Shown piece after piece: positions 956-56,817 of a DNA stretch of 64,000 bases. Position 1 is the first letter of the stretch. The number at the start of each line of letters is the position of its first letter. Source of the DNA: an uncultured Lachnospiraceae bacterium. Its GTDB lineage: Bacteria > Bacillota > Clostridia > Lachnospirales > Lachnospiraceae. The translations under genes and the position numbers were made by a program. The DNA is taken from contig ONKG01000004.1 in NCBI GenBank assembly GCA_900318375.1, forward strand, positions 1-64,000. Direction: 5' to 3'. The notes under the pieces were generated by a model. It ran no database searches, was not told the origin of the DNA, and was given only the letters and a program-made list of their open reading frames with translations.

Positions 956-990
956 TGTACGTGACAAGATTCGAACTCGCGACCTTCTGG
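956..990. repeat. Left attachment site copy (displaced tRNA-Arg 3' end)
   Basis: These 35 bases are identical to 13800-13834 and match the 3' part of the tRNA-Arg gene (T arm, acceptor stem and discriminator) on the minus strand. There is no 5' part of a tRNA here, so this is the original 3' end displaced by integration. Confidence 0.92.
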
Positions 991-1022
991 AAAACGGGTT
1001 ATTCTGTAGCCCTTGATTTTAC

Positions 1023-1068
1023 TGGGTTTTTCAGAGGTCAATTTAGCGTGTACACCGAAGTGTACACC
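1023..1068. promoter_or_regulatory. Left-end arm-type sites (putative integrase or excisionase binding)
   Basis: The segment holds TGGGTTTTTCAGAGGTC (1023-1039) and two direct copies of GTGTACACC (1048-1056 and 1060-1068). The same set occurs in inverted orientation just inside the right end (13731-13781). Such terminal inverted sites next to an integrase gene are typical of arm-type binding sites; the assignment is inference. Confidence 0.6.
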
Positions 1069-1069
1069 G

Positions 1070-2374
1070 TCATGCAAAGTTCCTTTTCTTGTGTACTTTT
1101 TCAATTGCGGCTCTCTTTTCGCTAATATCTGTATTGTCATAATAGTAGTACTCATCATTTACGTCAGGTGTGTTACCAATAAGAGAAGCACACATCTTTG
1201 AAGAGGCATTATCGTTGCGAAGATCGGAGTTGAAGGTCTTCCGGAGAGCATGAATACTGTATGTCTTTTTCAGTTTCAGCTGTTTGCTCTTGTTCTTGAT
1301 ACAGGATGCAATCATCAGGCTGTGTGTCCATCCATACACTGGATGTGGAAACACCCACTCTGAGACCATTCCATATTCGAACTGAGCGCGTCTGATTCTT
1401 TCAAGACTGTGCTTAATACTCTCATCAATAGGGAATCTTCGTGACTTCTTTGTCTTTGTTCCTTCAACACTCCACCATTTCTTTATCACATTACCGTTCT
1501 CATCTCGGTCTTTATTATACTTGTCAGAACGGCACACTGTGATTACTCCATGCTTGAAGTCAATATCTGACCACTTGAGAGTGGCAATTTCTCCAACGCG
1601 GGGAGCCATCTTTGCCGCTAATTCTACTGCATAATAAGTAAAGTTAGTTGGATGCTCTTGCATATCTTTGTATAGCTGTTCAAGGATCAGATTGAAGTCC
1701 TCATCCGGAATCAATTCAGATTCAGCTGTCTTTTCTTTTTTGGGAACGCAAGTGTTCCGGTAATCGGACTTATCAAGATACGACATCGGATCTGTCTGGA
1801 TTATCCTGCGTTTGAAGGCATACTTGAATGTCCCGTTAATGTAACCATACAGCTTGCCGAACGTCCGGTATTCAATGCCCTCTGCCCGGATTGTATTAAT
1901 AAAGTACGAGTCAAGATCCTGATCTGAAATCTCTGTGATAGGCATACATTCCAGTGAATTTCCATGAATGTAGCGGAAATAATCCGTAATATACTTGTCC
2001 TGTGTATTGTTAGAACTGTTATTCTTTTTCCAGTGATACTCGCGCCACTGCATGTAAACATCCTTAAATGTAGGAACATCCTCTTTGTCCCTCTGCCGAT
2101 AAAATTCTACGATAGCATCCTCTAAGTCTTTTCGCGAAGCCTTCTTGATCTGCTTGCCCTTCTTGCCCTCTGCATTTGGCAGATGTGTTCTCCACCTTGT
2201 AATATCACCCCCTGCTCTGTGTTCTGTTACTTGACTGATTGAAAATTTGTGTTGTGCCAGTATTTCCTTACGGTTCCTCATCTCTATCTCCTGACACATG
2301 TTGGCAATGACATCATCATAGCCGTTTTGTCCCGCGAGGGCAATAGCCCTCATAAAATCATTAGCATTTGTCAT
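1070..2374 (-). CDS. int: Site-specific tyrosine recombinase (element integrase)
   Basis: The 434-residue protein has the phage-integrase layout: an N-terminal arm-binding region, a core-binding helical domain (about 95-200) and a C-terminal catalytic domain. Visible catalytic positions are Arg259 (APRVGEIATLKW), Lys308 in the beta-hairpin, His375 and Arg378 (HALRKTF), and the nucleophile within the four tyrosines at 409-412. The second catalytic His is replaced by Asn (IGNTPDVND), as seen in some element integrases. It would cut and join DNA at the tRNA-Arg att core. The gene ends only 80 bp from the left att copy. The ATG at 2374 is directly preceded by an in-frame TGA ending a 6-codon reading frame, so the exact N-terminus is uncertain. 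Confidence 0.95.
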   Translation of the reverse strand: MTNANDFMRAIALAGQNGYDDVIANMCQEIEMRNRKEILAQHKFSISQVTEHRAGGDITRWRTHLPNAEGKKGKQIKKASRKDLEDAIVEFYRQRDKEDVPTFKDVYMQWREYHWKKNNSSNNTQDKYITDYFRYIHGNSLECMPITEISDQDLDSYFINTIRAEGIEYRTFGKLYGYINGTFKYAFKRRIIQTDPMSYLDKSDYRNTCVPKKEKTAESELIPDEDFNLILEQLYKDMQEHPTNFTYYAVELAAKMAPRVGEIATLKWSDIDFKHGVITVCRSDKYNKDRDENGNVIKKWWSVEGTKTKKSRRFPIDESIKHSLERIRRAQFEYGMVSEWVFPHPVYGWTHSLMIASCIKNKSKQLKLKKTYSIHALRKTFNSDLRNDNASSKMCASLIGNTPDVNDEYYYYDNTDISEKRAAIEKVHKKRNFA

Positions 2375-2496
2375 TCAGTATTCTTCATATGCCATTCCTC
2401 TCTCTTTCTGCAATCATAGATTAAAATTAATTTTTACTTTTGATTGAGCTGCAGGCGGCTCAGCCTGAGGGCTTCGCCGCCGTGTTGATACAATCT

Positions 2497-3132
2497 TTAT
2501 GCGAACAGTTTCGCATATTTTTTTTGCTTCCTCTTTGAAAGCTTCTCTGAAGACATGTCCCAGAAGTTTTCGCGGAACTTACTGAGACCATTTTCCCAAG
2601 CGTGAACACATATATGCTCAAGCCTCGTCATAATGACCAAGTTGTCAGGTGTGTTATTGAAGGTGTTTCGATCTTTGTGATGTACTGTGACGTGCTGATG
2701 ATCTACCCCCCTACCAAAGGCTTCAAAGCCCTTCAGAGTAAGAAGCTTATATGCCCTTTTGGATATCTGGCTATGGAATATCAATGCCACTAACGCGGAT
2801 ATATACAAAGGTTTTCCTATACCGTATGAGTGGTCGTTCCCGCTACCGATCCGAGGATATTTCCCTTTATTTGGATATGGGCAAAGGTGCAGAGGTTCTT
2901 CATCATATACTGTTATTACATCTCCCTGATTGGATATGAATAGGTGTTTTGGTAAATCTTTGCGTGCAGTAGACTTACTTGAATATAGAGGAAGCCACTT
3001 CATGCCCTTGCGGGTGAATATCAGTGGTTTGCCGTTTTTTGATGTTGGAGCAATAATCTGACCCTCACAAATATTCTTGAAGCGTTCCCTGTAGAACGCT
3101 AATGTTGTGTTCTTGTTTGTCTCCGTTTTCAT
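2497..3132 (-). CDS. HNH endonuclease family protein
   Basis: This 211-residue protein has an HNH core at about residues 135-180: VDHQHVTVHHKDRNTFNNTPDNLV, with the paired histidines, the asparagine of the NN-PDNL signature and a downstream His (EHICVHAW). The pattern is typical of HNH nucleases of phages and mobile elements, including free-standing homing types. The N-terminal half, with KDLPKHLFISNQGDVIT, resembles the DNA-contacting part of such proteins but was not assigned to a named domain. It may be a homing nuclease or a defence or packaging-type nicking enzyme; the target cannot be seen. It lies alone on the minus strand between integrase and the Rep-like gene. Confidence 0.75.
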   Translation of the reverse strand: MKTETNKNTTLAFYRERFKNICEGQIIAPTSKNGKPLIFTRKGMKWLPLYSSKSTARKDLPKHLFISNQGDVITVYDEEPLHLCPYPNKGKYPRIGSGNDHSYGIGKPLYISALVALIFHSQISKRAYKLLTLKGFEAFGRGVDHQHVTVHHKDRNTFNNTPDNLVIMTRLEHICVHAWENGLSKFRENFWDMSSEKLSKRKQKKYAKLFA

Positions 3133-3284
3133 TTATAAATCCTTTATTTAGTTAATAGTGTTATAGTTGCTTTATATAAAATAGAACAGATTGCTGTAAG
3201 TATCACAATTACCTATACATTAGGACATGATACATATCTGGAATTATCTATAAATATTAATTTTAATTGGGGTTTTCTTAATTG

Positions 3285-4220
3285 TCAGACAACTTGGATT
3301 TGTGTCATTTTTGACATGATTTCGTTGTTCAAGAAGCTGTCGGCAGCTCTATTGATTTCGTTGACGACATACTGACAGTCTGCCATAGTATAGAACTCAA
3401 GGTCACATTTGTTCTTATAGCGCCTTTTGAAGTTATCCGCGAGGGCTTCCGGGTTTTCGATGTTCCCTACCTCGTAAAGGAACTGGATGAGTTGGTGCCG
3501 TGTAAAGAAGTCCTCTGCATGGAGCATCAGGAACTCATTCACCTTCATTCCGTGCCCAAGTACCTTTTCCCTGTATTCTGGCTTCATCAAGGCATTGTAA
3601 TGCTTCTGGACATAATCCAGTTTATCCAACGCCCTCTGCCACCTTGTCTTCCAGTTATTCCCGAACTCTGTCTGTAGATCTGTAAGTGTGGCATTGCCCC
3701 TAACCCTTGACCGTTCCTCGAAGCGGGCGGTCACAAAACCAGACCCGTTCATTTCATCAAGCTTGTCGTAGAATTCGACCTGAAATCCGCTTGTCTTGAC
3801 CGAGAGACTGATTTTCTTGTTGCTGTCCAGTTTCTCGGTTTTGTACTTGTTCGTGATGCTGTATGCCAGCGCAAGACCCGTCAGCAGGAATCGATGTATC
3901 TTCCAGTAATCTTGATAAAAGTTCTTTTGTATGCTGTCAAGACGTAGATCCGTCCGTGTGATCTGATAATCGGAGACCTGTAGCTCTGACAGTATCTGCC
4001 CGATTGCAGTCTGATAATCTGAGTAATTGAAGATGTCTCCATCTAAGACGTTGGGATTGATGACAAGCAGGCTGTAAAGCTCACCCTTTTTGTTGTGTCG
4101 CATCCTACAGTCCACAACGTCACTCATTTCTTCCGGTACCATGATTTCTCCCTGACACCGGACTTGGAGCGTATGTACGCTACCTGTTAATTTGTACCTT
4201 TGCAATTTTTCTTTATTCAT
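3285..4220 (-). CDS. Putative replication initiator (phage/plasmid Rep, gene II/X-like)
   Basis: The 311-residue protein resembles phage and plasmid replication proteins of the gene II/X type: a beta-rich N-terminal half with QITRTDLRLDS near residues 92-102, the region that carries metal-binding residues in HUH-like initiators, and a helical C-terminal half. No clear HUH (His-hydrophobic-His) motif can be read, so the catalytic assignment is tentative. The start at 4220 has GGAG 11 nt upstream; an overlapping ATG at 4224 reads only three codons. The gene is preceded by its own promoter (4404-4432) and a terminator-like hairpin at 4251-4278, which would suit attenuation control of Rep supply. 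Confidence 0.5.
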   Translation of the reverse strand: MNKEKLQRYKLTGSVHTLQVRCQGEIMVPEEMSDVVDCRMRHNKKGELYSLLVINPNVLDGDIFNYSDYQTAIGQILSELQVSDYQITRTDLRLDSIQKNFYQDYWKIHRFLLTGLALAYSITNKYKTEKLDSNKKISLSVKTSGFQVEFYDKLDEMNGSGFVTARFEERSRVRGNATLTDLQTEFGNNWKTRWQRALDKLDYVQKHYNALMKPEYREKVLGHGMKVNEFLMLHAEDFFTRHQLIQFLYEVGNIENPEALADNFKRRYKNKCDLEFYTMADCQYVVNEINRAADSFLNNEIMSKMTQIQVV

Positions 4221-4250
4221 TCATTTTGTGTCTCCTTTCTTTTCCGCATA

Positions 4251-4278
4251 AAAAAACAGCGGGGTGGCGTCCCGCTGT
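4251..4278 (-). terminator. Leader terminator (attenuator) upstream of the Rep-like gene
   Basis: On the minus strand CAGCGGG and CCCGCTG form a 7-bp GC-rich stem with a short loop, followed by TTTTTT. It lies about 30 nt before the Rep start codon and downstream of the promoter at 4404-4432, so read-through would be needed for Rep expression. Confidence 0.7.
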
Positions 4279-4372
4279 GAAAATCCCTGATACATGCTCC
4301 TCTGTTACGACATAGCAGGTGATCCTCACGTAGGACATAAATTGTGTCGTTCGGTCACCGTGGTGAGAGCAT

Positions 4373-4403
4373 AAAAAAAGCATGGCTCTCTGTGACCATG
4401 CTT
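4373..4403. promoter_or_regulatory. Palindrome at the Rep transcription start (operator-like or early hairpin)
   Basis: AAGCATGG and CCATGCTT form an 8-bp inverted repeat with an 11-nt gap, beginning directly after the -10 box of the minus-strand promoter. In RNA it would be a hairpin followed by seven U. It may be a repressor operator or the first part of a structured leader. GAGAGC and GGTCAC in it can also pair with GCTCTC and GGTGACC downstream, giving an alternative fold. Confidence 0.45.
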
Positions 4404-4432
4404 AGAATAGCATAGTCCCCCCACCATGTCAA
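4404..4432 (-). promoter_or_regulatory. Promoter of the Rep-like gene
   Basis: On the minus strand TTGACA (4432-4427) is followed after 17 bp by TATTCT (4409-4404), a good sigma-70/sigma-A type promoter. The predicted start is near 4397, giving a leader of about 175 nt before the Rep start codon. Confidence 0.75.
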
Positions 4433-4655
4433 TAACTTTTTCCATAATATACTACTTTAGTATAAAACTAATTAATTTAAAATGCAAGCTTTATTTTTAT
4501 TTTATTTAAAAATATTTTGTAGAACTTTTGAATGGAATATATAGGAACTGAATGGACGGGTTGCCGTGTGGATTAATCACGTACCCCCAGGAACCGCATA
4601 AATGCTGATCTATATGTTCAATTCTCCCCCCGTTTAAAGATTAATTTTAAATTTG

Positions 4656-4684
4656 TTGACAATATATATAACATCATATATACT
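4656..4684 (+). promoter_or_regulatory. Promoter of the SprT-like gene (twin promoter 1)
   Basis: TTGACA (4656-4661), a 17-bp spacer and TATACT (4679-4684). The first 27 bases are identical to the promoter at 5540. The spacer contains TATATA repeats around AACATC, a possible shared operator. The predicted leader (from about 4690) carries ACAACACAC (4714-4722) and ACGAAAGAGAG (4741-4751), both shared with the other gene. Confidence 0.8.
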
Positions 4685-4760
4685 AAGATTGTCAAATGAA
4701 ACAAGGGCAAACAACAACACACACCAAAAGCCCTACACAAACGAAAGAGAGGATTCAATC

Positions 4761-5441
4761 ATGGCAAAAAGGACTATCAACTATCAGCGCGCTATTCAGG
4801 TACTGAATAAGATGTACAAAGCTGCGAATGAGTACTATTTTGACGGGGATTTGGAAGACGTTTGTATCACTATTCAGTCCAGTGTCAAGACATATGCACA
4901 TATTAGCGTATCTCCTGTGTGGCGAAATGTTGACGGTAAACAGATGCGGGAAATTAACTTGTCGGCTGAGCACCTTATGAGGTGCAATGATGGGGAATTT
5001 GGCGTGTTGAGTATCTGCTCAAGTCTCTTGCACGAAATGTCGCATTTGTACAATATGATGCACGGGATTAAGGATACGAGCACGAACGGGTACCATAATC
5101 GCAAATTCGCTATTACTGCCGAAGAAATCGCGCACCTGAAGATTTCCAAACATCCGGTTTATGGATGGACAATCACAGAGCCTACAGAGTCACAGCTTGA
5201 GTTCTGCACGGCTTTCGGTTTTGAGGATTTTTTGTTTGCCCGTGATGCTGATTTCCCTATTTCCACTGGAACTGGAACTCCTGCAACGGGCAACGGCAAC
5301 GGGAACCCGCCGAAAGTCAAGAAGCCCTCTAATTCCAAGCGTTATCAGTGCCCTTGCTGTAAAGCGATTGTTCGCGCTACATCCTTTGTCAATATCATTT
5401 GCGCTGACTGCAATGTCCCGTTTGTGCTGACCACTAAGTAA
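4761..5441 (+). CDS. SprT-like zinc metalloprotease domain protein
   Basis: Translation most likely starts at the ATG at 4761, after the ribosome binding site in ACGAAAGAGAGGATT; an upstream ATG at 4653 would overlap the promoter. The 226-residue protein has the gluzincin motif HEMSH at residues 91-95 and a likely third ligand His112 (GYHNRKF), as in SprT/Spartan-type proteases. After a Gly/Asn/Thr-rich linker (168-185) there is a C-terminal zinc ribbon with CPCC (197-200) and CADC (214-217). Spartan relatives cleave DNA-protein crosslinks; SprT-like proteins are common on plasmids and phages but their role there is not settled. The leader is a predicted target of the small RNA at 6711-6788. 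Confidence 0.75.
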   Translation: MAKRTINYQRAIQVLNKMYKAANEYYFDGDLEDVCITIQSSVKTYAHISVSPVWRNVDGKQMREINLSAEHLMRCNDGEFGVLSICSSLLHEMSHLYNMMHGIKDTSTNGYHNRKFAITAEEIAHLKISKHPVYGWTITEPTESQLEFCTAFGFEDFLFARDADFPISTGTGTPATGNGNGNPPKVKKPSNSKRYQCPCCKAIVRATSFVNIICADCNVPFVLTTK

Positions 5442-5450
5442 TAACACCAC

Positions 5451-5484
5451 ATCCGGACGGTGATATAACCGTCACCGTCCGGAT
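5451..5484 (+). other. 13-bp perfect hairpin after the SprT-like gene
   Basis: ATCCGGACGGTGA and TCACCGTCCGGAT pair perfectly around an 8-nt loop, 10 bp after the stop codon. There is no T-run, so it may stabilise the 3' end or be a weak terminator. A hairpin of the same size follows the gene at 5621. Confidence 0.65.
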
Positions 5485-5539
5485 CTTCCGATTAAATATT
5501 AATTTGAATAAATCCAGATTAGAAAATTCAAACAGACTA

Positions 5540-5568
5540 TTGACAATATATATAACATCATATATAAT
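5540..5568 (+). promoter_or_regulatory. Promoter of the 97-residue protein gene (twin promoter 2)
   Basis: TTGACA (5540-5545), 17 bp, TATAAT (5563-5568): a consensus promoter. It shares 27 identical bases with the promoter at 4656. The leader starts near 5575 and carries ACAACACAC (5579-5587) and ACGAAAGAGAG (5601-5611). Confidence 0.88.
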
Positions 5569-5620
5569 AACATCATAAACAACACACCACACCTTATATT
5601 ACGAAAGAGAGGATTTACAC

Positions 5621-5914
5621 ATGAAGACCACAAAGACTACTTCCGAGATCATGAAAGTTATGGCTGAGCTTGCATCCTACACTGAGATGATGGATGAGCT
5701 GAGTATTCAGGTCGAAAGCCTTAAAGATGAGATCAAGGCTTACATGATTGAGAACGACCTGTATGAGCTTAACGGTGAGGACGGTTCCCGCGCAACCTAT
5801 TCCACTGTCCGGCAGAACAGATTTAACAGTTCATTGTTCAAAAAGGACTTCGCAGACATTTACATGGAATATTGCAAAAAAATGGAGTACAAAAAATTCT
5901 GCTTTAGCCGTTGA
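5621..5914 (+). CDS. Small coiled-coil protein of unknown function
   Basis: I do not recognise this 97-residue protein. Residues about 10-45 form a likely coiled coil (MAELASYTEMMDELSIQVES, then LKDEIKAYMIEND), followed by a charged tail rich in Lys and aromatic residues. Similar short helical proteins occur on plasmids and integrative elements. The start at 5621 follows ACGAAAGAGAGGATTTACAC, the same ribosome binding region as the SprT-like gene, and both genes share one promoter sequence, so they are probably co-regulated. The loop of the small RNA at 6735-6745 is complementary to this ribosome binding site. Confidence 0.7.
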   Translation: MKTTKTTSEIMKVMAELASYTEMMDELSIQVESLKDEIKAYMIENDLYELNGEDGSRATYSTVRQNRFNSSLFKKDFADIYMEYCKKMEYKKFCFSR

Positions 5915-5924
5915 TTGAGTACAC

Positions 5925-5960
5925 GCCACCGGATACCAGACCACAACGGTATCCGGTGGC
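5925..5960 (+). other. 13-bp perfect hairpin after the 97-residue gene
   Basis: GCCACCGGATACC and GGTATCCGGTGGC pair perfectly with a 10-nt loop. It lies 10 bp after the stop codon and 28 bp before the next start, and has no T-run. The size and placement mirror the hairpin at 5451-5484, though the sequence differs. Confidence 0.65.
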
Positions 5961-5987
5961 AGGAGCCACAGAACAGGAGATAGCAAG

Positions 5988-6158
5988 ATGAGAGATACCG
6001 TATCATTACCTGAATTCTTTACCGTTATCGGGATCAGAGTTGGTACATTTGAGAGCACGATAGAGGATGAGAAGCATTTCGAAAATGAAGACCAAGCACG
6101 GGATTATGCCACAGACCTTCAGCGGGCGGGGCTTATCACCATCGTAGTAGCTGTATGA
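5988..6158 (+). CDS. Small protein, 56 residues, unknown function
   Basis: The reading frame runs from ATG at 5988 (ribosome binding site CAGGAGATAGCAAG) to TGA at 6156-6158. It begins MRDTVSLPEFFTVIGIRVGT, has an acidic middle (STIEDEKHFENEDQARDYAT) and ends LITIVVAV. The codon use, the strong ribosome binding site and the balanced composition support a real gene, but it matches nothing I recognise. It is likely co-transcribed with the gene at 5621 if the hairpin at 5925-5960 does not terminate. Confidence 0.6.
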   Translation: MRDTVSLPEFFTVIGIRVGTFESTIEDEKHFENEDQARDYATDLQRAGLITIVVAV

Positions 6159-6277
6159 CCTTTGACCGATTATTGACCAAATGATAGAATGAGAGAGCGG
6201 TACATCTGGAATGTCAGGTGTACCGCTATATATGAATAGGAGTATTTTAAAATTATTATTTAAAGAATGGAGCAGTC

Positions 6278-6652
6278 ATGGCAGTGAAAAAAGATCCGAC
6301 CAAACGGGCTAAAGATGGTAATGGAGCTTTTCGGAGCAAACTGGATTATATCAACGGCAAAATAAAAACTGATGAAGACGGCAAAGAGGTTAAGGTCGAG
6401 GGCTATAACAAGAGGGCTTATGACCGAATAATTTTCAGCGTTCCAAAAGGCTACCGAGAGCAATTGCAGGACTACATGCAGGCGCGTATAGATGAGATTG
6501 AAGAACTGAAGAACATTACAGATCGGACACAGGAACAAGAGGAACGACTGCAAGAACTACAATCAAAATATGTTGTATCTACCAGAGGAACACCGTCAAC
6601 GAACCATCTTTTGAAGCAGCTCCTGTTTTACGAAACAGGTCTGAGTTTTTAA
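6278..6652 (+). CDS. Putative ribbon-helix-helix-type DNA-binding protein
   Basis: The 124-residue protein starts at ATG 6278, preceded by GGAGCAGTC. Residues 47-69 (AYDRIIFSVPKGYREQLQDY) have the look of a short beta strand followed by a helix seen in Arc/MetJ-type ribbon-helix-helix proteins of mobile elements, and the following region (about 70-95) is a Glu-rich helix (IDEIEELKNITDRTQEQEER). The N-terminus is basic. The domain call is from pattern only. The gene lies directly upstream of the small RNA promoter, whose spacer is a palindrome, so this protein is a candidate repressor of that promoter or an accessory DNA-binding factor of the element. Confidence 0.5.
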   Translation: MAVKKDPTKRAKDGNGAFRSKLDYINGKIKTDEDGKEVKVEGYNKRAYDRIIFSVPKGYREQLQDYMQARIDEIEELKNITDRTQEQEERLQELQSKYVVSTRGTPSTNHLLKQLLFYETGLSF

Positions 6653-6676
6653 AATTAATATTTACTGGATATGATA

Positions 6677-6704
6677 TTTACAGATTCTACGAATCTGATA
6701 AAAT
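6677..6704 (+). promoter_or_regulatory. Small RNA promoter with palindromic operator
   Basis: TTTACA (6677-6682), a 16-bp spacer and TAAAAT (6699-6704). The spacer holds the near-complete dyad CAGATTCTACGAATCTG (6681-6697), with 7-bp arms around TAC, exactly between the -35 and -10 boxes. A bound repressor would block the promoter. Confidence 0.7.
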
Positions 6705-6710
6705 ATAGAC

Positions 6711-6788
6711 GTGTGTTGTGCAAGTACATCCTAACTCTCTTTCGTATGTGCTTGCAAAGGGGAGCGCTTCACAGCGCTCTCTTTTTTT
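6711..6788 (+). ncRNA. Putative trans-acting antisense RNA targeting two leaders in the element
   Basis: The predicted transcript starts near 6711 and ends at a terminator hairpin (GAGCGCT and AGCGCTC with loop TTCAC/TCAC, then a T-run 6782-6788). It contains an 11-bp stem, TGCAAGTACAT (6719-6729) with ATGTGCTTGCA (6746-6756), one G-U pair. The 16-nt loop includes CTCTCTTTCGT (6735-6745), the exact complement of ACGAAAGAGAG in the ribosome binding regions at 4741-4751 and 5601-5611. Its first 9 bases, GTGTGTTGT, are the exact complement of ACAACACAC at 4714-4722 and 5579-5587. It should block translation of both genes by loop contact, as plasmid antisense RNAs do. This is prediction from sequence; no family was recognised. 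Confidence 0.7.
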
Positions 6789-6824
6789 GCTCTTAGAAGT
6801 GCGTTTTTCGCGCTTATTTTTCAC

Positions 6825-6956
6825 TTAACAGGATGGCATGGTAAAGTGTACCAGTGCATCGCCAGGAATCAAAAAATAGTCGATTTTCCCGCTTATTATG
6901 ACCGTAGAATGAAAGTTGTAGTCTGTGACCCCTCTGCCGACTAAATCCTTCTGCAA
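6825..6956 (-). CDS. Possible 43-residue ORF in frame behind the XRE gene stops
   Basis: After the XRE gene stop (TAA then TAG) the same frame stays open for about 46 codons. From a TTG at 6956 it would encode 43 residues including VGRGVTDYNFHSTVIISG and KIDYFLIPGDALVHFTMPSC, a protein-like composition. There is no ATG and no clear ribosome binding site, so it may be a decayed C-terminal extension of the XRE gene or chance. Confidence 0.25.
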   Translation of the reverse strand: MQKDLVGRGVTDYNFHSTVIISGKIDYFLIPGDALVHFTMPSC

Positions 6957-6968
6957 CAGGTAGCACTA

Positions 6969-7268
6969 TTAGTCAACTGGATGAGCTTTCAAAGAATTTA
7001 CTATTGTCTTAATTGCTTCAATCTCTTTATCAGCCAGACCGGACACATCAATAGTTTTGCCTTTTCCAATATCGTTCCCCAGAAGATAATCTGTAGACAC
7101 CGAAAACACTTTTGAAATCATCAAAAGTGTTTCGAAGGATGGCATACGGATTCCTGTCTCATACGCACTGATAACAGACTTTGTGACTTGTAATTTCTTT
7201 GCCAACGCAGGCTGTGTCATATTGTGATTCAGACGTAATTGTTTCAAGCGGGAACCAAACTCGATCAT
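6969..7268 (-). CDS. XRE-family transcriptional regulator
   Basis: Translation starts at the ATG at 7268, directly after a strong AGGAGG; longer upstream starts lack a ribosome binding site. The 99-residue protein has a Cro/CI helix-turn-helix at residues 4-60: IEFGSRLKQLRLNHNMTQ, then LAKKLQVTKSVISAYETG and RMPSFETLLMISKVFSVSTD, a typical small repressor. The C-terminal 30 residues (VSGLADKEIEAIKTIVNSL) are probably a dimerisation helix. It is divergent from the zinc-ribbon membrane protein gene at 7396, and the 127-bp intergenic region holds promoter and inverted-repeat elements that it may bind. Confidence 0.85.
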   Translation of the reverse strand: MIEFGSRLKQLRLNHNMTQPALAKKLQVTKSVISAYETGIRMPSFETLLMISKVFSVSTDYLLGNDIGKGKTIDVSGLADKEIEAIKTIVNSLKAHPVD

Positions 7269-7337
7269 AGTCAACCTCCTGTAAGAAAAGTTTACAGTCA
7301 AATGAGATTTCCATAGGTTGACATGGTATTGATTTAG

Positions 7338-7380
7338 TTGATTCAAAAGTGTAATATTGTCTATACATCAAATACACTTT
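7338..7380 (+). promoter_or_regulatory. Promoter and inverted repeat upstream of the zinc-ribbon membrane protein
   Basis: TTGATT (7338-7343), 18 bp and TATACA (7362-7367) form a plausible promoter. An 8-bp inverted repeat, AAAGTGTA (7347-7354) and TACACTTT (7373-7380), brackets the -10 box and is a candidate operator for the divergent XRE protein. Confidence 0.5.
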
Positions 7381-7395
7381 GACGGAGGGAATGGT

Positions 7396-8715
7396 ATGAA
7401 AATATGTCCAAAATGTACAGCTAAAAATGCCGATACCGCAAAATTCTGCAACGAGTGCGGCTCGGCACTGGAAATTACGGACGCAGAAGCATCGAAAACT
7501 GTAAGCGATCCTGAGTCTGTAACAGAGACACCAAAAGAAGGTATTAGCCCGGCAGAAAATGAAGATTCTACTCCTATTACAATCGCTGAAACAATGAACG
7601 ATGCTCAGGAATCCGTATCAGAACAGACAGCACAAAAGGATGAATCTTCTCCAAAGAAAAAGAGCCGCTTAATTATTTGTATTGTAGCCATCGCACTAAT
7701 CTGTATTATTGGGTATATGGCTACTCGCCCGAAATTAATATCGTTAGATGTTACTTATAACGGAGATACATCTGGCGGAGTTGTGTTGGATAGTAATAAT
7801 GAAGGCTTTATAGTATCAGCAAACTATTCAGATGGCAAAAAGAAAATCATTTCTGCAGGAGAATGGCAAATAGAAGAGCCCAAAACGTTACAATCAGATG
7901 GACATGAGACAGTAGTTATAAAGGTTAAGGATATTTCGCAAGCGATAACTATTTATTGCTCCACGACGAAACTTCAATCAGTGACGGCATTATATAATGG
8001 ATCAAAGATCGAAGGTACAATTATTAATAAGGATTCTGATTTTACTGTAAAAGGGACTTTTGGGGACGGTCATACTAAGGAATATGATAATACTTCATGG
8101 TATCTTACTCCAGCTGAAACTACACTAAAAGCAGGGGAAACAAGTAAAATCACAATAAGTATGAATATGGATGACGGTACTACATGGTCAGCTGACCTTG
8201 AAATAACAGGTACAGAAAAGCCTTTTGCAGGGCCTGAAGTGGAAGGAGACCACTTTAATTGCTCAATTAATCAGTTTGTAAAATATGTGAATGAAAAGAC
8301 AGTGCTGACTCTGTTCCCTATTGATAAAGTGTTTGGTGAAGAATATGACTGCTACGGAATAAAACCACCTAATGAGGTTACAGAAATATCTAATGAAGAT
8401 GTATTAGTTTTGGCAATGAGAGAAAACCAAGATGGAAAATTACAAAACTGTGTAGTATATTCTTTAGACGAAACATCAGGAATGGCAGCAGCATTACAAG
8501 TGGCAAAAATATTGGATGACACTGTTGATACAAGCGATAAAAGTAAATTGGCTTCTTTTGTTACAAAAAAAACATTTGCGACAAACAAAATTACTATATG
8601 GATGTGGCAACAAAAAGATTCCTCTTATAATTTCCATATAATGACAGCTGATGCTACAAAGAAACTTTACGATGATACAATGGATAAATTTGGTGACACG
8701 TTGAACGACAATTAA
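7396..8715 (+). CDS. Zinc-ribbon, single-pass membrane protein
   Basis: The start is the ATG at 7396 after GGAGGGAATGGT; an upstream in-frame ATG at 7357 falls inside the promoter. The 439-residue protein begins with a zinc ribbon (Cys4, Cys7, Cys18, Cys21), then an acidic Ser/Glu/Thr-rich linker (25-85), a basic stretch and one membrane segment (about 92-110, RLIICIVAIALICIIGYMAT). The remainder would be outside: two or three beta-rich repeats that read as Ig-like or bacterial surface domains, then a mixed domain with KKTFATNKITIWMWQQ. This layout is common in Clostridia but the function is unknown. The gene is AT-rich even for the element. Confidence 0.7.
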   Translation: MKICPKCTAKNADTAKFCNECGSALEITDAEASKTVSDPESVTETPKEGISPAENEDSTPITIAETMNDAQESVSEQTAQKDESSPKKKSRLIICIVAIALICIIGYMATRPKLISLDVTYNGDTSGGVVLDSNNEGFIVSANYSDGKKKIISAGEWQIEEPKTLQSDGHETVVIKVKDISQAITIYCSTTKLQSVTALYNGSKIEGTIINKDSDFTVKGTFGDGHTKEYDNTSWYLTPAETTLKAGETSKITISMNMDDGTTWSADLEITGTEKPFAGPEVEGDHFNCSINQFVKYVNEKTVLTLFPIDKVFGEEYDCYGIKPPNEVTEISNEDVLVLAMRENQDGKLQNCVVYSLDETSGMAAALQVAKILDDTVDTSDKSKLASFVTKKTFATNKITIWMWQQKDSSYNFHIMTADATKKLYDDTMDKFGDTLNDN

Positions 8716-8727
8716 CAAGGAATCCTC

Positions 8728-8774
8728 AGAGGACACCCGCATGCCCCAGGTATCGCGGATGTCCTCTTTTTTTA
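8728..8774 (+). terminator. Rho-independent terminator after the zinc-ribbon membrane protein gene
   Basis: AGAGGACA and TGTCCTCT, with an inner CCGC/GCGG pair, form an extended hairpin followed by a T-run at 8767-8774. It starts 13 bp after the stop codon. Confidence 0.85.
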
Positions 8775-8804
8775 CATCTTTGTGGAATCATAACTTAAAA
8801 AGTA

Positions 8805-8898
8805 TTGACGCGGTATCAAAACTATGTTAGTATTGAGTCACAATACGGAGTCAAAACATAGTGTCAAAAGTAATAGTTGCATAACATAGTGTCATAAA
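8805..8898 (+). promoter_or_regulatory. Recombinase promoter with res-like repeats
   Basis: TTGACG (8805-8810), 17 bp, TAGTAT (8828-8833) form a promoter. Overlapping it are repeats of one half-site: ATCAAAACTATGTTA (8814-8828) in one orientation, and AACATAGTGTCA at about 8856-8867 and 8883-8894 in the other. Serine resolvases commonly bind such sites upstream of their own gene and repress it. Confidence 0.55.
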
Positions 8899-8912
8899 TA
8901 CAGGAGAATAAT

Positions 8913-9500
8913 ATGGTTTACGGATATGCCAGAGTAAGTACCAAAGGACAGGCGAAAGACGGAAATAGTCTTGAGGCACAGGAGAAAGCATTAAGGGATG
9001 CAGGAGCGAATATTATTTTTAAAGACAGCTTCACCGGAACAAAAGCAAGCCGACCGGAATTTGACAAGCTGCTTCAAGTACTGGAAAGCGGAGACAAGTT
9101 GATAGTAACTAAGTTAGACAGGTTCGCGCGATCCGCTTCACAAGGTAACGAAATAATTGAAGACCTTTTAAAGAAGGGCATCACGGTTCATATTCTGAAC
9201 ATGGGTGAAATTAATAGTTCTATATCTGGAAAGCTGATCAGAAGAATTATGTTTGCCTTCGCTGAGTTTGAAAGAGATATGATTGTTGAGAGAACACAAG
9301 AGGGCAAAGCAATCGCTAAAGCAAATGCCGCTGCAAAAGGACAACGTTTTGTTGAAGGAAGACCGCGTAAATATGACGATGAACAGCTTGCATATGCGCT
9401 GAAATTGCTTGAAACGAAAAGCTACAAGGATGTGACCCACATTACAGGAATCAGCAAGGCAACGCTGATCCGCGCCAAGCGCGAGCAGAAAGCTCAGTGA
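8913..9500 (+). CDS. Serine recombinase, resolvase/invertase family
   Basis: The 195-residue protein has the usual length of small serine recombinases. The catalytic domain contains YARVSTKGQ with nucleophile Ser9, the arginine motif TKLDRFARS near residue 67, and [18 protein letters not shown] leading into the long E helix. The C-terminal 45 residues ([20 protein letters not shown], then [15 protein letters not shown]) form the DNA-binding helix-turn-helix. Such proteins resolve multimers or invert DNA between short sites. The likely sites are the repeats at 8814-8898 upstream. The ATG at 8913 follows CAGGAGAATAAT. Confidence 0.92.
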
Positions 9501-9547
9501 AATAGGGACATTCTCTGACGACCTTCAAAAACCCCAATAAAATCAGG

Positions 9548-9608
9548 GGGGGTGTACAAAAAATGAATATAGTAAAATAATCCCTATATTCAAATTTCGT
9601 ACACCCCC
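9548..9608. repeat. Long two-step inverted repeat downstream of the recombinase
   Basis: Outer arms GGGGGTGTAC (9548-9557) and GTACACCCCC (9599-9608) and inner arms TGAATATAG (9564-9572) and CTATATTCA (9584-9592) are perfect, separated by 6-bp A/T-rich internal loops. The outer arm includes GGTGTAC, which overlaps the motif at the element ends (GTGTACACC on the other strand). It could be a single-strand origin, a protein binding site or a terminator-like structure, though there is no T-run. Confidence 0.7.
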
Positions 9609-9754
9609 TACTGAAAACATTGGACTTTTTGAATGTACAGATGAAAGAGACAGTAATAATAAGGGCTAATGGAATGGTGTAATAAAAGTATCCAAAGGTA
9701 TATCCACCAGACCAAAAACATGCAATTATCCAAAACCTAAAATCCAGTAATTCA

Positions 9755-9845
9755 TTGACGAATCGAAAAAAATATGTCCAAATATCCGGTATAATATATA
9801 AGATGTTATACCAGATATTTGGTCAAAAAATTTTCGATTCGTCAA
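9755..9845. repeat. Long palindrome, copy A
   Basis: Perfect 15-bp outer arms (TTGACGAATCGAAAA, 9755-9769, and TTTTCGATTCGTCAA, 9831-9845) enclose inner arms CCAAATATC-GGTATAA (9778-9794) and TTATACC-GATATTTGG (9806-9822). It is followed by TCAATATAACATTAG (9842-9856). It is a diverged copy of 9913-9993, with base changes that keep pairing. Confidence 0.8.
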
Positions 9846-9912
9846 TATAACATTAGGCTTTTTGTTCTGGATTTTTGCCAGACTTACAAGGGGAATCAAT
9901 AAAACATTAGTT

Positions 9913-9993
9913 AAATCGAAAAAATATGTCTAAATATCCGGTATAATATATATAACGTTATACCAGATATTTAGACAAGTTTTTTTCAATCCG
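9913..9993. repeat. Long palindrome, copy B
   Basis: Inner arms GTCTAAATATC (9928-9938), GGTATAA (9940-9946), TTATACC (9958-9964) and GATATTTAGAC (9966-9976) are perfect. Relative to copy A a C-G pair has become T-A and a T-T mismatch has become T-A, so pairing is conserved or improved. The flanking motif TCAATAAAACATTAG occurs on both sides (9896-9910 and 9995-10009). The outer arms are degenerate. Confidence 0.8.
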
Positions 9994-10009
9994 TCAATAA
10001 AACATTAGA

Positions 10010-10312
10010 GTTGCATATTTGAGTTATTGAAATAATGTGATCCCCTATCCGTAAAAATGCAGATGCTTAAAGGGTTTTCTGGAAGTTTCTGCATATATTT
10101 TTGACTTGTAGGTTAGTTATATATAACTAATGAAATGTATAATAATTACATAAAGAATTTGAAGTCCCTGAAAAAGAACACGATACCTGGGCGCAAAAAA
10201 TAAAGGTGCTGTGTGGACAGCGCGAATTGAGTTTTTCGTGTTGCTGTAGTACACTACAATCATAATTGTTTTTAAATATTAATTTTAATACAGTACGGAA
10301 AAGAGGTATTCA
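10010..10312. other. Intergenic region upstream of the methyltransferase
   Basis: No gene is apparent. It holds an ATGCAGA / TCTGCAT inverted repeat around 10057 and 10087, TTGACT at 10101-10106, the perfect 18-bp palindrome TTAGTTATATATAACTAA (10113-10130), and a copy of the AT-rich element motif at 10271-10290. The palindrome is a candidate operator for control of the methyltransferase operon. No convincing -10 box at correct spacing could be fixed. Confidence 0.4.
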
Positions 10313-11464
10313 ATGCCTGCATCTGGTAACAGAGATTTGAATAATGCTAAATCAGCACGCAAGGATGAATTCTATACACAGCTGACAGATATAGAAAAAG
10401 AAATGCGCTATTATAGAAATCATTTCAAGGGTAAGACGGTATTCTGCAACTGTGATGATCCCTTTGAAAGCAATTTCTTCAAATATTTTGTCCTGAATTT
10501 TAATCGTCTTGGATTGAAGAAGTTGATTGCCACTTGCTATATCGGTTCACCTATTGCGGGAAAACAGTTTTCTCTTTCGGATCTTTTTGATGATTTTCCC
10601 AAAGACGATGTGTCTCAGAAGAACAGACAAATAAAACCTTATAAAGCTATTATTAATACTGTCTATGATAAAACTGGAGACGGAAGTGTGGACATGATGG
10701 ACGTGGCGAGGCTGTTTGAATCCGGAGAGAACCAATTGACAAGGCTGAAGGGTAATGGTGATTTCAGATCCCCTGAATGTCTAAAGTTGATGGATGAAGC
10801 TGATATTGTTGTTACGAACCCGCCTTTTAGCTTATTCAGAGAGTATGTATCTGTTTTGATTGAACATGAGAAAAAGTTTGTTATTATCGGAAATGTCAAT
10901 GCAATAACATACAAAGAAATTTTTCCTCTTGTGATGAATAATCAAATGTGGATAGGTGCGAGTATTCATTCCGGAGACAGAGCATTCTATGTTCCTGATG
11001 ACTACCCTTTGGACGCCGCTGGATGCGGTATAGAGAAAGCAACAGGACGTAAATATATTCGTGTGAAGGGGATTCGATGGTATACAAACCTCGATATAAA
11101 ACAACGCCATGATGAGATGATACTCGTAAAAAAATATAATTCAGAAGAGTATCCTTCGTATGATAATTACGATGCTATAGAAGTAAAAAAGACCTCGGAT
11201 ATTCCATGTGATTATGATGGAGTCATGGGCGTACCTATAACATTTATAGACAAATACAATCCGGATCAATTTGAAATTCTTGGAATGACTGATCGAAATA
11301 ATCAGTATGGATTAACAACGAAAATATATACAAAAGAGGACGGTGCTAATTACGGGGACTGTAATAGAAGAGGAGCCATACGTCAATCTGATGGTTCTTT
11401 ACGAAGTACTTTTGCACGGTTATTAATCCGCAACAAACACCCTGAATTTCCAAAGGAGAGTTAA
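10313..11464 (+). CDS. Adenine-specific DNA methyltransferase, EcoRI family
   Basis: The 383-residue protein matches EcoRI-type adenine methylases. It starts with the family block [20 protein letters not shown], continues with [20 protein letters not shown] (the AdoMet-binding start, 43-62) and has catalytic motif IV as TNPPFS at 168-173. It would transfer a methyl group from S-adenosylmethionine to N6 of adenine in a specific sequence. The start follows GGAAAAGAGGTATTCA. The stop is 2 bp before the next start, so the two genes are translationally linked. In a restriction-modification role it would protect DNA from the partner nuclease. Confidence 0.88.
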
Positions 11465-11466
11465 GC

Positions 11467-12573
11467 ATGGAAATTAAGCAACTTCAAGTGACAGTTGGCG
11501 AAGTTTGTGAGGGTTATTTCAACGATGCTGAAGAGGGTGTCGTGGGGTATGATGAACGACTTGATATCCGACCCCGTTATCAGCGCGAATTTATCTACAA
11601 GGATGCACAACGTGATGAAGTAATCCGCACTGTGCTGAAGGGTTTGCCTCTGAACGTCATGTATTGGTGCAAGGTCAAAAGAGAAGACGGTACAGACGGT
11701 TATGAAGTCCTTGATGGGCAACAGAGGACTATCTCTTTGTGTGAGTATGTGGATGGTTCATTCTCTGTAGATGATAAGTACTTTTATAACCTTCCATCAG
11801 ATCTGAAGAAAAAGATACTTGACTATCCATTATTTGTATATGTCTGTGATGGAACTGACAGTGAACGCCTTGAATGGTTCAAAATCATCAATATCGCGGG
11901 TGAGAAGCTGACGGATCAGGAGCTGAGAAATGCTGTATATGCAGGAACCTGGACGGCTGATGCAAAGAAATATTTCAGCAAGACAGGCTGTGCGGCATCT
12001 ACATTGGCAGGAGATTATCTGCGTGGCTCTTCAATCCGGCAGGAGTATCTGGAAACGGCTCTTTTATGGGCTTCTACCGCTGAGGATAAGTCCATTGAAG
12101 GATATATGGCTGAACATCAGAACGACCCCTCTGCCGTCCAATTATGGAACTATTTCCGGTCTGTCATTGATTGGGTAGAAGCCATATTCCCTAAGAAGCG
12201 TAAAGAGATGAAGGGACTCCCGTGGGGACTGTTCTTCAATGAGCATGGAAAGAGAACGGATCTTGACCCGAAAACTCTTGAGTCTGAGATTGAACGCTTG
12301 ATGGGTGACGAGGATGTTACCAAAAAGTCTGGAATATATGAGTATCTACTGACAGGAGATGAGAGACGGCTATCAATCAGGGCATTTGACCGGAGAGACG
12401 CACTGACGGCTTATGAGAAGCAGAATCATAAGTGTGCTCTCTGTGGAGAAACTTTTGAATTCTCAGAGATGCAAGCTGATCATATCATTCCGTGGAGCAA
12501 AGGTGGAAAAACTGTTCCAGAGAATTGCCAGATGCTATGTACTCAGTGTAATCTGAAAAAAAGTAATATGTAA
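11467..12573 (+). CDS. DUF262 domain protein with C-terminal HNH nuclease
   Basis: The 368-residue protein has an N-terminal DUF262 (ParB/sulfiredoxin-like) domain with the diagnostic DGQQRT at residues 83-88 and YQREFIY near 39. The C-terminus (about 322-368) is a zinc-bound HNH nuclease: [33 protein letters not shown]262 proteins such as GmrS and related antiphage nucleases hydrolyse nucleotides or act in modification-dependent restriction. Fused to HNH and placed 2 bp after a methyltransferase, this is probably the nuclease half of a two-gene defence system. The cognate sequence cannot be read. Confidence 0.85.
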
Positions 12574-12576
12574 GAC

Positions 12577-12616
12577 AAACAGGAGTATTCTCTATGACGG
12601 GAACACTCCTGTTTTT
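12577..12616 (+). terminator. Terminator of the methyltransferase-nuclease operon
   Basis: AAACAGGAGT and ACTCCTGTTT form a 10-bp stem whose distal end runs into a T-tract (12612-12616). It begins directly after the nuclease stop codon. Confidence 0.85.
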
Positions 12617-12792
12617 GATTAAAAATTAATTTTAATTATTTCATATATATCTATACATTAGGACTGGTAGTACATTTCCAATTTCAAAAAAATCCATATA
12701 AACATATAGTGAATTGAAAAGCTGCCCAAAACGGGTTTTATGTCATTTCTGACATAATTATGTCCGGAAGTGATAGAAGAGGATCTGATATT

Positions 12793-12942
12793 TCACCTAT
12801 CCAGTACTTCCTGAAGCATTGTTCTATTATCGTAGTAGAATTTGATGCTCAGTGGAACGCCCTCTGCATCGTAAAAAAAGATACGGACTCCGCGTCTTTT
12901 ATCGACAGTACAGCATGTGACATGGTCTATGGAATCTTCAGT
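12793..12942 (-). pseudogene. In-frame extension of the zinc-ribbon gene beyond an amber codon
   Basis: The frame of the gene at 12943-13446 continues past its TAG for 49 sense codons to a TGA at 12795-12793. The encoded tail contains VDKRRGVRIFFYDAEGVPLS and IKFYYDNRTMLQEVLDR, which is protein-like with a balanced composition. It has no start codon or ribosome binding site of its own. Either a nonsense mutation truncated the gene or the TAG is read through. Confidence 0.5.
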
Positions 12943-13446
12943 CTAGTCTTCTTGATTGACATTAAGGTCATAGTAAAGGTTATAGTCATGAAGGAATTCG
13001 TTCTCAAGATCAGCCCATTCCTTTGAATGATATCTGTATGGACTGAGATGCTCTGTTTCAGCATGTTTTGTCTTTGCCCCGCATTTACTACATATTGGTG
13101 AAGCCATGTGGAAAATGTGGCTTTTCATCATATGATGGCAATTAGGGCATTTATAGGTATAGCAGATATAGGGATCTCCGTTTCCCTCATCAATTATCTC
13201 AAGGCTTTCAACCTCTGAATCAACTGTATTTGCTTCTTTTACCCGCGCCGGGGTGACGTATTTTTCATTACACTCATCACAGCAAACATTTTCTCCGTAT
13301 TCACCCATCGGCATATATGGTTCTGGATTGTTCCCGAGACCGGAGAACTGTTTGCCACAGATGCAACAAGTATTCATAGGAATATCTGGATCGACAAGCC
13401 GGATCTTTGAGCGGAGAACTTTCTTATGCAATTCTTCAGGTGTCAT
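12943..13446 (-). CDS. Multi-zinc-ribbon protein of unknown function
   Basis: The 167-residue protein has four Cys-X2-Cys knuckles: CCICGKQF near residue 28, CCDEC near 55, YKCPNCHHM near 98 and SPICSKCG near 116. This suggests two treble-clef or rubredoxin-like zinc sites. It is cytoplasmic with an acidic C-terminus. The start ATG overlaps the stop of the upstream 50-residue gene (TAATG), so the pair is translationally coupled. The TAG at 12945-12943 is followed by a further 49 in-frame codons, so the product may be shorter than its ancestor. No function can be assigned. Confidence 0.65.
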   Translation of the reverse strand: MTPEELHKKVLRSKIRLVDPDIPMNTCCICGKQFSGLGNNPEPYMPMGEYGENVCCDECNEKYVTPARVKEANTVDSEVESLEIIDEGNGDPYICYTYKCPNCHHMMKSHIFHMASPICSKCGAKTKHAETEHLSPYRYHSKEWADLENEFLHDYNLYYDLNVNQED

Positions 13447-13598
13447 TATTTCTTTGTCTCCTGTTCCTTTTTCAGTTTTTTCATCTGTTCTAATTGTCTT
13501 TCAAGTTCTGCCTTTTGCCAGCGGAGCTGATATACTTCGTGTCGTTTCTTGTCTCTCTTTTTTGAGAGTAAGTCAAATATTATATCTGTAATTATCAT
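13446..13598 (-). CDS. Small coiled-coil protein, 50 residues
   Basis: The frame starts at ATG 13598 after GCAGAGGTATCCAC and ends in TAATG, sharing one base with the start of the zinc-ribbon gene. The product begins MIITDIIFDLLSKKRDKKR and continues as a charged helix (WQKAELERQLEQMKKLKKEQ), a probable coiled coil. The overlap with the downstream gene and the ribosome binding site support translation. Function unknown. Confidence 0.6.
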   Translation of the reverse strand: MIITDIIFDLLSKKRDKKRHEVYQLRWQKAELERQLEQMKKLKKEQETKK

Positions 13599-13673
13599 GT
13601 GGATACCTCTGCTTAAAATAAATATTTAAAATAGTACATATGTTCTTCTTTATCAATAATATCTGATACAAAT

Positions 13674-13707
13674 AAAAAAGGCAACCGACTTAATCGATTG
13701 CCTTTTG
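13674..13707. terminator. Bidirectional terminator near the right end of the element
   Basis: AAAAAGGCAA and TTGCCTTTT form a stem with A- and T-tracts on both sides and an inner CGA/TCG pairing. It separates the minus-strand zinc-ribbon operon from the right end. Confidence 0.7.
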
Positions 13708-13730
13708 CCAACATGTGCTTCTTTTTGTAG

Positions 13731-13781
13731 GTGTACACCAGTGTACACCGGAATCAAATGTTGCGACTTCAGAAAAACCCA
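13731..13781. promoter_or_regulatory. Right-end arm-type sites
   Basis: Two direct GTGTACACC copies (13731-13739 and 13741-13749) and GACTTCAGAAAAACCCA (13765-13781) mirror, in inverted order, the left-end set at 1023-1068. The 17-mers match at 15 positions when one is reversed. Confidence 0.6.
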
Positions 13782-13799
13782 ATGTTTTCCTGATAAAAG

Positions 13800-13873
13800 T
13801 GTACGTGACAAGATTCGAACTCGCGACCTTCTGGTCCGTAGCCAGACGCTCTATCCAGCTGAGCTACACGTAC
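13800..13873 (-). tRNA. tRNA-Arg (anticodon ACG)
   Basis: The minus strand folds into a full cloverleaf. It has acceptor stem GTACGTG/CACGTAC, D arm around AGCTCAGCTGGATAGAGC, anticodon stem TCTGG/CCAGA with loop CTACGGA (anticodon ACG), T loop TTCGAAT and discriminator A. CCA is not encoded. The 3' 35 bases are duplicated at 956-990, marking this as the integration site of the element; the gene stays intact because the element restores its 3' end. Confidence 0.95.
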
Positions 13874-56620: not shown

Positions 56621-56726
56621 CGCAGATATGTATGAATAAACGACGCATTGCTCCGCGCCGCGGGCGCTTTCGCAATGCTCCAACCATTCGGAATCCGCTC
56701 GTTTTGCGCGAAAAGCATGCGCCAAA

Positions 56727-56817
56727 CGGCTTCTTCCTCATGTTTGGACGCTCGTCAAGGCCTCAAGAGCGTTCGTGCATGCACGACGCTCCCTCGGCTT
56801 TTCCTCGCTGTTTATTC
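56727..56817. repeat. 91-bp intergenic direct repeat, copy 2
   Basis: A diverged copy of 56530-56620, at 197-bp offset. The end TTTATTCATACATAT is the inverse of ATATGTATGAATAAA just after copy 1 (about 56626-56640), so the pair also has an inverted element. No transposase is near. Confidence 0.9.

Follow-up and report, generated by a model that had tools for sequence, protein, structure and literature searches.

The window analysed here is a stretch of 64,000 nt (positions 1-64,000 of contig ONKG01000004.1, assembly GCA_900318375.1) from an uncultured Lachnospiraceae bacterium. It carries an integrated element (956-13834) that lies between two direct repeats of 35 nt (956-990 and 13800-13834), where a tRNA-Arg gene ends, and that has a tyrosine integrase gene on the reverse strand (1070-2374; PF00589). 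The central block of the element contains, in order, a gene for a SprT-like protein, a gene for a 97-aa protein, a 56-aa open reading frame (5988-6158), a gene for a 124-aa protein and a predicted small RNA unit. Further along, at 10313-12573, an EcoRI-type adenine methyltransferase is followed by a candidate type II restriction enzyme (PADLOC MTase_II and REase_II). Two 90-nt direct copies (9767-9856 and 9919-10008) are 86% alike, and each contains a dyad when read by eye.

The SprT-like gene (4761-5441, forward strand) encodes 226 aa that match PF10263 (28.9 bits against a cut-off of 25.6), and a CPCC...C..C pattern near the C terminus reads by eye as a probable zinc ribbon. Its promoter, TTGACA-17-TATACT (4656-4684, forward), scores 11/12. 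The product of the 97-aa gene (5621-5914, forward; promoter TTGACA-17-TATAAT at 5540-5568, forward, 12/12) is a predicted coiled coil that resembles DUF7376 and phage RecE-like families, the DUF7376 match being below the Pfam cut-off in the window and above it in the homolog at locus L066, described below; a structure model (pLDDT 69) is likewise a coiled coil and adds little. A 16-bp dyad, TATATAACATCATATA, is present in two copies, one over the -10 box of each of these promoters (4665-4680 and 5549-5564). Between promoter and start codon, the two leaders have a pair of blocks in common: an ACA-rich block, ACAACACAC (4714-4722 and 5579-5587, forward), and ACGAAAGAGAG (4741-4751 and 5601-5611, forward), which contains the Shine-Dalgarno box. 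The 124-aa gene (6278-6652, forward) has homologs directly 5' of the RNA in all three elements discussed here. Its family gave no significant Pfam match and no PDB sequence match, and the structure model is poor (pLDDT 53); that it is a ribbon-helix-helix regulator is our guess.

The predicted RNA (6711-6788, forward) is 78 nt long and consists of a 5' tail, an 11-bp hairpin with a 16-nt loop, and an intrinsic terminator. The stem arms are at 6719-6729 and 6746-6756, the loop CCTAACTCTCTTTCGT is at 6730-6745, and the terminator hairpin, found by a terminator scan and followed by a T run, is at 6756-6785. Stem and terminator together fold at -31 kcal/mol (z -5.4), and none of 200 shuffles was equally stable. 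A sigma-70-type promoter, TTTACA-16-TAAAAT with a TG before the -10 box, lies at 6677-6704 (forward); it is a consensus match only (10/12 matches). The dyad AGATTC-TAC-GAATCT (6682-6696) between its -35 and -10 boxes is, from its sequence, a possible operator; inspection by eye showed none in the promoters of the other RNA copies. The promoter, dyad and terminator that had been claimed for this unit are thus all in place, with the proviso that the stretch has many promoter-like sites (14, with 9.6 expected); for terminators the scan found 5 against 2.2 expected.

Complementarity to two leaders

The 5' block of the RNA, GTGTGTTGT (6711-6719, forward), is exactly complementary to ACAACACAC in both leaders, and the loop block CTCTCTTTCGT (6735-6745, forward) is exactly complementary over 11 nt to ACGAAAGAGAG in both ribosome-binding regions. 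These are the matches proposed by the earlier reading of this DNA, made from the sequence only, and both are confirmed; the match to the leader of the 97-aa gene is in fact 12 nt long. Both blocks are predicted to be largely accessible (mean unpaired 0.94 for the 5' block and 0.83 for the loop block).

How readily could such matches arise by chance? Within the 64 kb the four block words occur, on either strand, at these positions only. In the organism's own genome (3.93 Mb, 82% complete) ACGAAAGAGAG is found four times, once in each leader and once in each of two RNA copies, of which one is described below; the reversed control pattern has five occurrences. Two blocks common to both leaders and summing to 20 nt (11+9) were reached by 0 of 20,000 dinucleotide shuffles of the window RNA, and a single block of at least 11 nt by 5 of 20,000.

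Related elements and a second copy of the RNA

Among the genomes of the family, 16 of 397 (own genome included) have a SprT match at E <=1e-8, and the genome scan for related loci returned 80 of 87. Loci L066-L080 were tested for the 97-aa gene, and L067-L069 and L081-L162 for both the 97-aa and the 124-aa genes. The window order of SprT-like gene, 97-aa homolog and 124-aa homolog was found in two of the tested loci, both from another genus: L066/L081, a single locus in the Lachnospiraceae MAG RUG11089, and L140, in UBA3711. (Locus L162, in genome G533, is contained in L140 letter for letter.) Their SprT proteins are 45-46% identical to that of the window, and the 97-aa homologs are 40-46% identical to that of L066. 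Because L066 and L140 are themselves related (86% identity between their SprT proteins), they are not two fully independent cases.

In both loci an RNA-like unit stands directly 3' of the 124-aa homolog, the same position as in the window. A simple terminator scan lists the window and L140 units and not that of L081, which does fold. In the L066 RNA, CTGTACCTCT is matched by the two ribosome-binding regions, over 11 nt in one case, and GTGGTTGTT by AACAACCAC in both leaders. The L140 RNA has TACCTCATTC, which matches GAATGAGGTA, and GTGGTTG, which matches CAACCAC, each of them in the two leaders; the second match extends to 8 nt in one leader and is only 7 nt in the ACA box of the SprT leader. 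Over the 10.6 kb of each locus, the two leaders are the only places with the Shine-Dalgarno block, and the RNA is the only place with its complement; the ACA block has one extra copy elsewhere, and its complement has none. L066 and L140 share the core GAGGTA/TACCTC, and the bases that flank it differ together in both leaders and in the RNA. Summed over the two blocks, cognate matches are 11+9 in the window, 10+9 in L066 and 10+7 in L140, whereas non-cognate pairs of RNA and leader reach at most 7+7. Shuffles equalled or exceeded the observed sums 0, 0 and 10 times, respectively, in 20,000. Covariation between loop and leaders, by which the sequence-only reading proposed that its claim be judged, is therefore present: the blocks in L066/L081 and L140 are altered, and each RNA matches its own two leaders. 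Complementarity to the translation start regions of the targets thus appears to have been kept by evolution, and since the altered RNAs of the relatives still match their own altered genes, the RNA is very probably a real gene-controlling RNA.

The promoter dyad recurs in these loci as TATATG-N4-CATATA, in four places in L066 and in three in L140. The copies precede the SprT, 97-aa and 124-aa homologs and, in L066, also a serine recombinase gene: the fourth L066 copy, TATATGCTATCATATA, is at 10994 on the reverse strand, just before that gene, suggesting that the recombinase may belong to the same dyad regulon. The shared promoter dyad suggests that there is probably a second, transcriptional layer of control, and the 124-aa family is a candidate for the protein that binds it.

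A second copy of the RNA was found in the same genome (G000) on another contig, C81, at 50569-50615 on the reverse strand, within a 198-bp stretch that is 75% identical to window positions 6697-6894. Its 5' tail (10/10) and loop (16/16) are unchanged with respect to the window RNA, and the terminator arms differ. All 11 stem pairs are kept, five through double changes and four through single changes, with two invariant. In a stem-covariation control 18 of 500 shuffles did as well and only two sequences are being compared, so the strength of this result is in its pattern and not in the number. Constant unpaired blocks on a covarying stem are the mark of what is probably a selected RNA. On the window leaders the C81 copy has the full cognate sum of 11+9, which 1 of 20,000 shuffles reached. 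Read by eye, the promoter of this copy has a poor -35 box. Also conserved with the RNA is a dyad directly 3' of it, TGGTAAAGTGTACCA in the window (6839-6853); in the general form TGGTAAAGT(G/A)TACCA it accompanies both copies (6839-6853 and C81:50473-50487; L002 and L003), with no other exact match in the genome and one more with a single mismatch. It is possibly a protein site or an origin feature.

The 18 kb around the C81 copy contain nothing else that can be recognised as part of the element. The SprT query has a single match in the genome at E 1e-8, so that the only visible targets of the C81 RNA are the window leaders; the genome being 82% complete, missing contigs could hold others. A serine recombinase near this solo copy (L003 6127-6894, reverse strand) and one in L140 (6771-7508) appear similar when compared by eye, a hint that the C81 copy may be what is left of a related element.

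Block order, proposed action and alternatives

In the window RNA the block that matches the ACA box is the free 5' tail and the block that matches the Shine-Dalgarno box is the hairpin loop, an order that makes one continuous duplex impossible. This had been noted from the sequence and is true of the window RNA and the C81 copy, but not of L066 and L140, where the order is reversed and hence collinear with the mRNA. In the RNAs of these two loci the Shine-Dalgarno block precedes the ACA block; it lies between two hairpins, partly inside the first of them, and the ACA block is located in the terminator loop. The first hairpin's loop and the bases at its edges additionally match the region of the start codon, over 8 nt in each L066 leader and over 6 and 5 nt in those of L140. 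In the L066 RNA the anti-Shine-Dalgarno block is partly paired internally (mean unpaired 0.40).

Duplex energies reflect this difference. With collinear blocks, the duplexes on the L066 and L140 leaders go far beyond shuffles (-50.4, -47.5, -41.1 and -40.6; z -7.1, -6.7, -5.6 and -6.1; 0/1000 shuffles as good in each case). Calculated in the same way, the window RNA gave weak scores, since its blocks come in an order that is not collinear with the target: -29.0 and -28.0 (z -2.0 and -2.4), with 39 and 17 of 1000 shuffles as good, so that the duplex-energy check proposed earlier does little for this RNA. The C81 copy gave z -1.1 and -2.7 (148 and 12 of 1000 shuffles as good). In an energy matrix the L066 and L140 RNAs were best on their own leaders. 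There was no clear preference for the window RNA (-34.2 and -25.0 on its own leaders, -33.3 and -18.5 on those of L066) or for the C81 RNA (-33.4 and -32.0 on the window leaders, -32.7 on the SprT leader of L140). Since duplex scores for the window RNA are weak and unspecific, its case rests on the exact blocks and on their conservation.

The unit is in all likelihood a trans-encoded antisense RNA of the integrative element that would repress translation of both proteins; the earlier prediction of an antisense RNA against both leaders gains support from the cognate block changes in the relatives and from the covarying C81 stem. The RNA, whose gene lies on the same strand as its targets and some 1-2 kb 3' of them (at 6711, the leaders being at 4.7 and 5.6 kb), would be transcribed from its own promoter-like site and would pair with two sites per leader, the ACA-rich block and the Shine-Dalgarno box. 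According to PMC3879156, translation can be enhanced by ACA motifs near a Shine-Dalgarno box, and GcvB pairs with such motifs and silences them. By analogy the ACA block may be a translation enhancer. Pairing would block ribosome binding, giving repression rather than activation; with both mRNAs blocked, one RNA would set the dose of the SprT-like protein and its 97-aa partner jointly. The window RNA would make two separate contacts, one through its 5' tail and one through its hairpin loop, and in L066 and L140 the collinear AUG region, Shine-Dalgarno box and ACA box would form one interrupted duplex.

The direction of regulation is not readable from sequence, and among the six leaders are some whose Shine-Dalgarno block is partly paired (mean unpaired 0.24-0.75); pairing with both leaders might thus activate or stabilise the two mRNAs. 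We hold this to be very improbable, because the pairing covers the Shine-Dalgarno box itself, in L066 also the start codon, and because the window leaders have little structure of their own (-8.6 and -1.5 kcal/mol). A different question is where the RNA comes from. In the window about 60 nt separate the unit from the 124-aa gene before it, and in L066 and L140 the spacing from the homolog is 15-25 nt. The unit could be the 3' end and terminator of that gene, the RNA being cut from the mRNA and still pairing with the leaders; SGI1 has an element sRNA derived from a 3' end (PMC9299015). Such an origin seems to us unlikely, given that each of the three element RNAs (window, L066/L081 and L140) has a promoter-like site of its own upstream and that the C81 copy stands without a 124-aa gene.

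Finally, any terminator with a pyrimidine-rich loop may match purine-rich Shine-Dalgarno boxes by chance. A scan of SprT leaders shows how far this goes: the 80 returned loci (of 87), the window and nine family loci made 90, of which 88 were usable (L073 and L077-L080 were left out), and two-block matches of 9+7 nt were found at 13 of the 88, against 3-9 of 88 in swapped-leader controls, and matches of 8+7 nt at 21, which is within the controls (12-22). Five of the 13 are near-identical Bacillus loci. As an account of the window RNA, however, coincidence is hardly credible: three elements also have a match to the ACA block, which is not rich in purines, RNA and leaders change jointly in the relatives with the few shuffles given above, and a conserved loop sits on a covarying stem.

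If the RNA is an antisense repressor as proposed, might it also act between elements? The solo C81 copy keeps both blocks letter for letter while its stem has drifted, and this is the basis for supposing that the RNA module is portable and serves in immunity or in cross-talk between elements, silencing the SprT and 97-aa genes of an incoming sister element in trans. We consider this improbable on present grounds. Were it true, it would be an RNA-based superinfection control from which related elements escape by changing the blocks in RNA and leaders together.

Distribution and relation to known systems

The SprT-leader scan did not find the system more widely: at a threshold of at least 10 nt there were 13 matches in 88 loci, against 6-14 in controls, and among the scanned SprT loci only the window, L081 and L140 convince. 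Two others (L141 and L158) have high two-block sums (20 and 24) on the opposite strand and with weaker terminators, and these may be due to chance. In L090 the 97-aa homolog precedes SprT, and the SprT leader had no match in either leader scan.

Searches with the RNA itself gave little beyond the two known copies. Among 397 family genomes the exact 15-nt loop was found only in these two copies and once in G361, where the match looks coding by eye and was judged to be chance. A covariance model (R1) run on 62 genomes of the same genus recovered the same two copies and a match in G001 (E 0.072) that breaks 5 of the 11 stem pairs and was likewise judged to be chance; it lies between two long reading frames that we take to be dnaE and pfkA. 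BLASTN of the RNA region against 195 relatives returned the own sequence and three short partial matches (24, 36 and 65 nt) near E 5e-4, and the two-block DNA pattern had 0 matches in the collection of genome contigs. In viral contigs the exact loop occurs in 31 stretches, all 31 without the tail and the stem (2-7 of 11 pairs), and the operator pattern occurs once, without other parts of the system.

The partner genes are similarly restricted. The region's DNA had no match among plasmids and phages, nor did the 124-aa family. The SprT protein matched 40 plasmid records (at most 37% identity among the best 20 of the 40) and 8 phage records (at most 36%). In viral contigs the SprT and 124-aa queries found nothing related apart from two distant SprT matches. 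A profile of the 124-aa family found only its own genome among 392 genomes of the order, and its own genome and G509 among 397 of the family; a SprT profile found only its own among the 62 of the genus.

How does this RNA compare with known ones? RNAII of plasmid pMV158 is transcribed opposite its target. Here the leaders are on the same strand as the RNA and more than 1 kb away, and the targets match SprT-like and DUF7376-like families instead of a replication initiator, so the window RNA is not a member of the pMV158 RNAII type. There are nevertheless likenesses to the CopG/RNAII system (PMC4485353). RNAII, which is encoded by the element, is a small antisense RNA whose 5' tail is single-stranded and whose hairpin has a U-rich 3' end; it inhibits translation of an element gene, as the window RNA probably does, and a repressor adds a second layer, for which the 124-aa protein is a candidate here. 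RNAII is the antisense RNA of repB, whereas the window RNA has a gene at another place in the element and blocks that are short and split, and its two targets are a SprT-like and a coiled-coil protein. Judged by size and family (226 aa, SprT-like; 97 aa, coiled coil), these targets are not the small hydrophobic toxins of type I toxin-antitoxin systems, and the RNA, as is usual for trans-encoded sRNAs, is encoded away from them.

Among trans-encoded sRNAs, GcvB pairs through a G/U-rich stretch and needs Hfq, although an RNA chaperone such as Hfq is not universal in this class. GcvB resembles the window RNA in pairing with ACA motifs upstream of the Shine-Dalgarno box, but is enterobacterial and has many targets (PMC3879156). 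Staphylococcus aureus RNAIII makes two separate contacts with coa mRNA, one of which masks the Shine-Dalgarno box; unlike the window RNA, it is a quorum-sensing effector, and its second contact is a loop-loop one in the coding region and not at an upstream ACA block (PMC2837412). The sgm-sRNA of SGI1 is, like the window RNA, a small RNA carried by an integrative mobilisable element (PMC9299015).

Text searches among open-licence papers listed no account of an RNA such as this one. Base-pairing sRNAs are a known kind; what would be new is a family with permuted blocks and twin targets that is borne by elements and is possibly a portable module. It would be an sRNA family of integrative elements outside Rfam 15, and the case for it is unusually complete for one built from sequence alone, in that there are two sites, two targets and a joint change of RNA and leaders between elements. 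The RNA would also predict which element proteins need joint dosing, and this naturally diverged set of RNA-leader pairs offers a test bed for how antisense blocks permute and yet keep their targets. With Rfam 15, no family reached its gathering threshold at the window locus, the best there being sbrA (25.1 against 45 bits), and the L081, L140 and C81 RNAs had no match at E-values up to 1. Elsewhere in the window, at 56635-56816 on the reverse strand, there is a Clostridiales-1 RNA (RF01699), a known sRNA family, with a score of 99 bits.
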